Positions 30,250 through 30,990 of a stretch of DNA of 53,599 nucleotides are shown here, in pieces. The position numbers were made by a program, and so were the translations under genes. Position 1 is the first letter of the stretch; each line of letters starts with the position of its first letter. The DNA comes from Bdellovibrionales bacterium. GTDB taxonomy: Bacteria > Bdellovibrionota > UBA1018 > CAIMNF01. The notes beneath the pieces were generated by a model. That model did not search any database, had not been told where the DNA came from, and saw only the letters and a list, made by a program, of their open reading frames with translations. Where the stretch lies: the NCBI GenBank assembly GCA_018969905.1, contig JAGWXK010000004.1, positions 1-53,599 on the forward strand. The letters are read 5' to 3'.

Positions 30250-30990
30250 TCATTGCTCGCAATATTTCGCGGCGTTTTCAAAAATCGCATAACCTTGGCC
30301 GGGCGCTGCCGCGCGGGTCGGGTTCATGAACCAGTCCTCGGCATTGGTCCAGTTCAAGAAATACTCGGGATGCGGCGTCAGACCGAAGATCCGCCCCGAT
30401 GGATCACAAAGGCCGATGATCTTTTCCTGCTCACCGGTCTTCAGGCACGCAAGCCCAAGCCGCTCGATCTTCCCCTTGGCCTCCACAAATGCACCGGGCT
30501 CGATCACAAACTCGGTGTCCTTCTGATTGAGCGGCAATTCAATGGTCCCCATTTCCTTGAGCCAGATGCAGCGGTTGCCGATCGGAACCGCCTTCACCCA
30601 TCGGCTTTCGGTCTGAGCCGATTCGTTGATTCTCAAGGTGAAATCGTCACCAAAGACATTCATATGGAGCAACGCCTGAAATCCCGTGCCCACCCCAAGG
30701 ACCAGGCCTCCACGCTCGGCAAATTTCAGGAGATTCCAACGAAACAGATGCTGCATCTTGATCGCAAACATCTTCCCCCCACCCAAAACCGAGGAATACG
30801 TATTGCCTCCGGTCACGATCAGTACCTTGTATTTCAGGCAGAGCTGATCAAGGTCAATCCGGTAATCGAGGATATCCGCAACGCTCAGGATCTCCGAGTC
30901 AAAACCAACCGAGTTCAAACCATGTTCAAAATGTCGCTCTCCCCGGCTTCCGGGTGCCGAAAGAATGAGTGCCCGGTATTTGCTGCTCAT
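30250..30990 (-). CDS. PurQ-like class I glutamine amidotransferase lacking the nucleophile Cys
   Basis: VLGVGTGFQALL in place of canonical GxCNGFQxL; retains GLTPHPEYFL. Confidence 0.75.
   Translation of the reverse strand: MSSKYRALILSAPGSRGERHFEHGLNSVGFDSEILSVADILDYRIDLDQLCLKYKVLIVTGGNTYSSVLGGGKMFAIKMQHLFRWNLLKFAERGGLVLGVGTGFQALLHMNVFGDDFTLRINESAQTESRWVKAVPIGNRCIWLKEMGTIELPLNQKDTEFVIEPGAFVEAKGKIERLGLACLKTGEQEKIIGLCDPSGRIFGLTPHPEYFLNWTNAEDWFMNPTRAAAPGQGYAIFENAAKYCEQ

Follow-up and report, generated by a model that had tools for sequence, protein, structure and literature searches.

A Bdellovibrionales bacterium that, judged from its genome sequence, appears to have lost the ability to make purines nevertheless keeps three genes derived from purine synthesis, encoding PurC-, PurL- and PurQ-like proteins that are predicted to be degenerate and that are under strong purifying selection. 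That purine proteins are conserved although dead suggests that they have a second job. The reading we consider likely is that this catalytically dead, still selected descendant of PurC and PurL/PurQ is kept for a second, non-catalytic role that was gained before the loss. The genes lie in a 53,599-nucleotide stretch of DNA (contig JAGWXK010000004.1), referred to below as the window.

Degenerate purine proteins and their locus

The three genes are found in the order purC-purL-purQ, purQ being the last gene of the set (Table 1). The PurL-like and PurQ-like genes overlap by ATGA and the PurL-like and PurC-like genes overlap too, which suggests coupled translation. Downstream, 10 bp separate the PurQ-like stop from the end of a purine salvage kinase gene, and this convergent pair is kept in the genus and not in G012, a genome outside it. 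No promoter was found by a consensus scan at the locus, and the frequency of terminators did not exceed that in shuffled sequence.

Table 1. Features of the purine-derived gene set in the window.
Feature	Position	Strand	Description	Basis
Inosine/guanosine kinase (purine salvage)	28941..30239	+	Convergent neighbour
PurQ-like protein	30250..30990	-	Predicted pseudo-glutaminase, 246 aa; Cys to Gly at residue 101	Family match and genus comparison
HPE of the old catalytic triad	30364..30372	-	Residues 207-209, retained
Former nucleophile elbow	30673..30708	-	GLVLGVGTGFQA, residues 95-106; canonical in the order GLVLGICNGFQA
PurL-like protein	30987..33392	-	Predicted pseudoenzyme, 801 aa; catalytic motifs lost; start ATG 33390-33392
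Insert in PurL N-terminal (PurS-like) domain	33075..33182	-	Lineage-specific, WVFTGDLLPSAAGATGTLYDLMQESPFRPGVFHGIE
PurC-like protein	33382..34569	-	Predicted pseudoenzyme, 395 aa
ExoX-like_C protein	34586..34813	-	75 aa; directly upstream of the PurC-like gene	In the set by neighbourhood only

The PurQ-like protein matches GATase_5 at 4.5e-29 (101.8 bits, cut-off 27) and PurQ/FGAM_synth_I at 3e-15, far under the NCBIfam equivalog cut-offs. By sequence match it belongs to the PurQ family and it has the HPE, and the nucleophile Cys of the GxCNGFQ motif is missing. An earlier note on this DNA had read a replacement of the Cys and Asn of this motif by Gly and Thr together with a retained distal HPE, and both readings are borne out, the nucleophile position being Gly101 and the adjoining one Thr102. 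Its proposal that glutamine hydrolysis by the standard mechanism should be impossible is supported, since the nucleophile is missing genus-wide and with it the N16-C17 turn, the D67-D68 loop and the R155-H-G-E-G-R160 stretch. The comparison of orthologues that the note had suggested returned Gly in all 12 genomes of the genus, which were independently assembled; the Cys is also absent from the PurQ-like proteins of ten further genomes of the order and of G012. Outside the window the HPE varies, reading D-P-E in G004 and R-P-E in G028 and G040. The note had named a substitute Cys or an assembly error as what could overturn its claim, and neither was found. Since all 12 genus genomes lack the Cys, the loss is not an assembly error; the genus-invariant Cys residues 141, 182 and 195 are ancestral, being present already in most Cys-bearing PurQ proteins, and thus do not represent a replacement nucleophile. 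A Gly-to-Cys reversion by itself is not expected to give back activity.

The loss of the Cys is therefore real, but as a picture of a single altered gene the note was incomplete: the PurL-like and PurC-like proteins appear to be dead too, no other part of the pathway was detected, and several lineages have loci stripped and decayed in the same way. The PurL-like protein has no Pfam or NCBIfam match. Its descent from PurL was recognised by comparing a profile of ten genus members with one of ten insert-bearing PurLs that the order's full operons encode; hhalign gave a probability of 100 and an E-value of 1.5e-57, with 25% identity over nearly the full length. When the genus PurL profile was searched against the PDB, no FGAR amidotransferase was matched, so the homology is visible only through intermediates. 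In the window's genus, the PurL motifs HCKHK, ETHN, QER, PND and GKDSM are all absent. For the PurC-like protein no Pfam hit was obtained, and the matches are weak but specific (NCBIfam 5e-7, PDB 1kut 8e-4); it retains 28 of 64 residues that are near-invariant in active PurC, and its motifs GSxK, PLEVxxRF, TKLExxDR, DGKxE and IGxDExR are degraded. Because the motifs of PurQ, PurL and PurC are lost, all three proteins are predicted to be degenerate. AlphaFold2, run on three sequences, gave a pLDDT of 45 for the PurQ-like and 29 for the PurL-like protein.

The membership of the remaining genes is less clear-cut. PurC is absent beside PurL in several degenerate loci and may not be part of the core set; in G011 (locus L040, 10586-13237) the PurC-like gene is absent and the ExoX-like gene stands directly before the PurL-like gene, thus PurC is dispensable in the set. 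The ExoX-like_C protein is 52-92% identical across the class, and its gene adjoins the pur locus in most of the order, co-directionally in the window's genus and divergently in family f2. As the gene is present through the class, and in families f7 and f8 apart from the pur genes, its linkage to the set is only suggestive.

Loss of the pathway and retention of the PurQ-like gene

The genome-wide pathway search comprised PurH, SAICAR synthase (standard PurC), PurD and PurM. None of the four was detected in the window's genome (97% complete, 180 contigs), whereas the same searches do detect them in relatives and in most of 14 control genomes. By contrast, a complete nucleotide biosynthesis pathway has been described for Bdellovibrio bacteriovorus HD100 (PMC7529429). 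Among the 43 genomes of the order that are at least 85% complete, mostly drafts, the PurQ-like gene is present in 42 and PurH in 27; in G006 a piece of PurH runs off the examined stretch. This leaves fifteen genomes that are PurH-less (G000, G001, G002, G005, G007-G010, G013, G026, G028, G033, G034, G040 and G047), and neither PurD nor PurM was found above cut-off in any of them. The PurQ-like gene is kept in 14 of these 15 and its Cys is lost in 12 of the 14, the exceptions being G033 and G034. Only G013 has lost the whole set, so the proposed second role is not universal.

Repeated stripping of the operon

Ancestrally, the order had the operon purF-C-D-N-L-Q-H-M-addB-addA, which often follows dapF. 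In f2 genomes this operon has been reduced where it stood, between dapF and addBA. Only purL-purQ are seen before addBA in G026, G029, G030, G033, G035, G044 and G047, some of these loci sitting on contigs that end near purL; in G034 purL-purQ lie 1.6 kb before addB, in G050 the contig stops just past purQ, and purC-purL-purQ are left in G028, G040 and G054. A halfway state is seen in G022 (locus L071), which has purL, purQ and purH only, with HYQHK in PurL, and in whose genome PurD, PurM and SAICAR synthase were not found. The decay is not uniform: G033 and G034 are without the pathway and yet keep the PurQ Cys, the PurL of G033 reading YYKHK and EAHD, while in G028 and G040 the PurL motifs are intact and PurQ has Gly for the Cys and Arg for the His of HPE.

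On the addAB tree, stripping needs six changes and Cys loss four, and a single clade is rejected for both (p-AU 2.5e-8 and 1.8e-6, respectively, assuming that addAB tracks the species tree). The stripped G034 and the full G025 are sisters with support 100/100. Stripping thus arose in several lineages, not once. The PurQ tree, taken alone, is compatible with a single loss of the Cys, but the addAB tree rejects this.

In eight genomes (G029, G030, G035, G044, G003, G006, G011 and G012) the dead set stands beside a second operon with a Cys-bearing PurQ, complete where the contig allows. In G030, G035 and G044 (loci L057, L058 and L056) the second operon has a different type of PurL and was possibly acquired to restore prototrophy; the second-copy PurL is without the N-terminal insert in G030 and G035, where this was checked. 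The G012 PurQ-like protein (locus L054, 9605-10324) is without both the nucleophile region (ATGAATD) and HPE (EPQ), and that genome also has a separate full purine operon with a Cys-bearing PurQ.

Constraint on the PurL N-terminal insert

The N-terminal domain is the less conserved part of FGAR amidotransferases as a group, with a function that is not well understood (PMC3815217). In the PurL-like protein the N-terminus (first 200 positions; 42% identity) keeps 68% of the near-invariant residues, and the two synthase halves 11% and 21%; in the outgroup G055 this is reversed, with 43, 87 and 68%, respectively. Within the N-terminus lies a 36-residue stretch that in the window begins with WVFTGDLLPSAAG and ends with RPGVF, with the consensus W[LV]FTG[ND]L[IL]PSAAG..G...DL....P.RPG.F. 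The stretch is found in all insert-type PurLs compared, active and dead alike, and is absent from the compared PurLs of G018, families f3, f7 and f8 and the second copies. Every degenerate PurL keeps 15-16 of the 16 near-invariant residues of the insert, while the rest of the protein keeps from 19 to 92%: 19-22% in the window's family, 40-60% in G026, G029, G030, G035 and G054, and about 90% at early stages. Nowhere in the genus PurL-like proteins are invariant residues packed more densely than in this stretch (26 of 36; hypergeometric p 3e-9, the stretch having been picked post hoc). The genus PurL profile finds the N-terminal region (about 195 residues) within the order; no relative outside the order was found with it in 241 sampled genomes of the phylum, nor was a viral relative of the PurL-like protein found. 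Constraint has shifted from the catalytic halves onto the insert, which is the probable site of the proposed second function of FGAR amidotransferase.

These data bear on whether the old folds now catalyse another reaction with newly built active sites, which we regard as unlikely, though it survives better than the other alternatives. The good internal conservation of the genus proteins (mean column identity 66% for PurL-like, 74% for PurQ-like) and an operon made of three former synthesis enzymes would be in line with a new enzyme; however, constraint is strongest on a non-catalytic insert that active enzymes also carry, G028, G033, G026, G029 and G030 drop catalytic residues piecemeal and differently with no new shared motif, and PurC is dispensable in G011 and others.

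Selection on the gene set

Pairwise NG86 dN/dS within the genus is 0.011-0.083 for the purC-, purL- and purQ-like genes, with dS often saturated. For G028 and G040, at unsaturated dS of about 0.14-0.23, it is 0.05-0.10 (PurL 0.07-0.08, PurQ 0.05-0.065), about equal to or below that of addA and addB. Purifying selection is strong (dN/dS 0.01-0.1), therefore the pur-derived genes are not decaying pseudogenes. The view that they persist passively from a lost pathway and are decaying because selection on them has relaxed does draw on a real pathway loss and on intermediates that lose catalytic residues stepwise, but it is already largely refuted, and we hold it very improbable: reading frames are intact in the genus, dN/dS is similar to or under that of neighbours, retention of the insert is near complete, and PurL-PurQ stayed at the same spots from which purF, purD, purN, purH and purM are gone.

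There is still less to be said for a set that makes FGAM from free ammonia, with the glutaminase alone lost. G028 and G040, with their PurL catalytic motifs kept and PurQ Cys and HPE His lost, would fit such chemistry, but in the window's genus all five PurL motifs are missing, and neither PurD, which acts upstream of FGAR, nor the downstream PurM was found. That faulty assembly or incomplete metagenome bins produced an artefact, as 180 contigs in the window's genome and the draft state of most others might suggest, is the least credible explanation, since the same state is seen in G002 (8 contigs, 98% complete), G010 and G028, the stripped gene order was read on single contigs and 12 independent assemblies agree.

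A proposed second role for PurL-PurQ

We return to the favoured explanation, namely that PurL-PurQ probably acquired a second function, as a scaffold or a regulator, while the pathway still existed, and that this function is why it was retained. In the ancestor of most of the order (family f3 and G018 being without the insert), about 30 residues would have been inserted into the PurS-like domain of an active PurL, which, together with PurQ, would have taken on a second non-catalytic role. A lineage would then have abandoned de novo purine synthesis, obtaining purine nucleosides from outside, e.g. via Gsk, after which purF, purD, purN, purH and purM would have been deleted while PurL-PurQ, with or without PurC, was retained for the second role; the glutaminase, FGAR/ATP and SAICAR sites would have decayed afterwards. 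We infer that the PurC-, PurL- and PurQ-like proteins form a complex, and that this putative complex would have no enzymatic function and would instead serve as a protein-binding scaffold or regulator, perhaps one that senses purine nucleotides. Whether the still-active, insert-bearing PurL-PurQ itself moonlights, its insert giving it an important non-metabolic function, we consider evenly balanced; such a function would explain why purine synthesis was lost independently with PurL-PurQ kept as pseudoenzymes.

The order thus offers a repeated natural experiment, in which several lineages that lost the pathway have each retained these two enzymes (in some cases three) in a dead form. Such a pattern favours FGAR amidotransferase having a second function in bacteria, and points to the 36-residue stretch as its likely site. 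Furthermore, intact, intermediate and fully converted loci are available, so that the order of changes from enzyme to pseudoenzyme is directly readable.

Comparison with known systems

The window set resembles PurQ/FGAR amidotransferase (split large PurL plus PurQ; structures 3d54 and 1t3t) in descent and domain order, and has in common with it the PurQ-like signature, with the genus PurQ profile matching 3d54 chain D at 8e-14, as well as the HPE and the adjacency and overlap of purL and purQ. Unlike that system, it is without the glutaminase nucleophile and neighbouring residues, the PurL motifs and the surrounding pathway, and its PurL-like protein has the lineage insert in the N-terminal domain. 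With PurC (SAICAR synthase), the PurC-like protein shares a weak specific match and differs by its degraded catalytic motifs. A literature search found no bacterial FGAR amidotransferase pseudoenzyme. The nearest analogue, likened by description, is the vGAT of the gammaherpesvirus ORF75 family, these being glutamine amidotransferase homologues without key active sites that recruit host PFAS (PMC6868034); in both cases the protein is a dead FGAR amidotransferase homologue. The vGATs are viral and act on host signalling, whereas the window genes are bacterial, have been kept past the loss of their own pathway and are known from sequence alone. As the viral vGATs illustrate, recruitment of another protein is a mode of action open to a dead homologue of FGAR amidotransferase.
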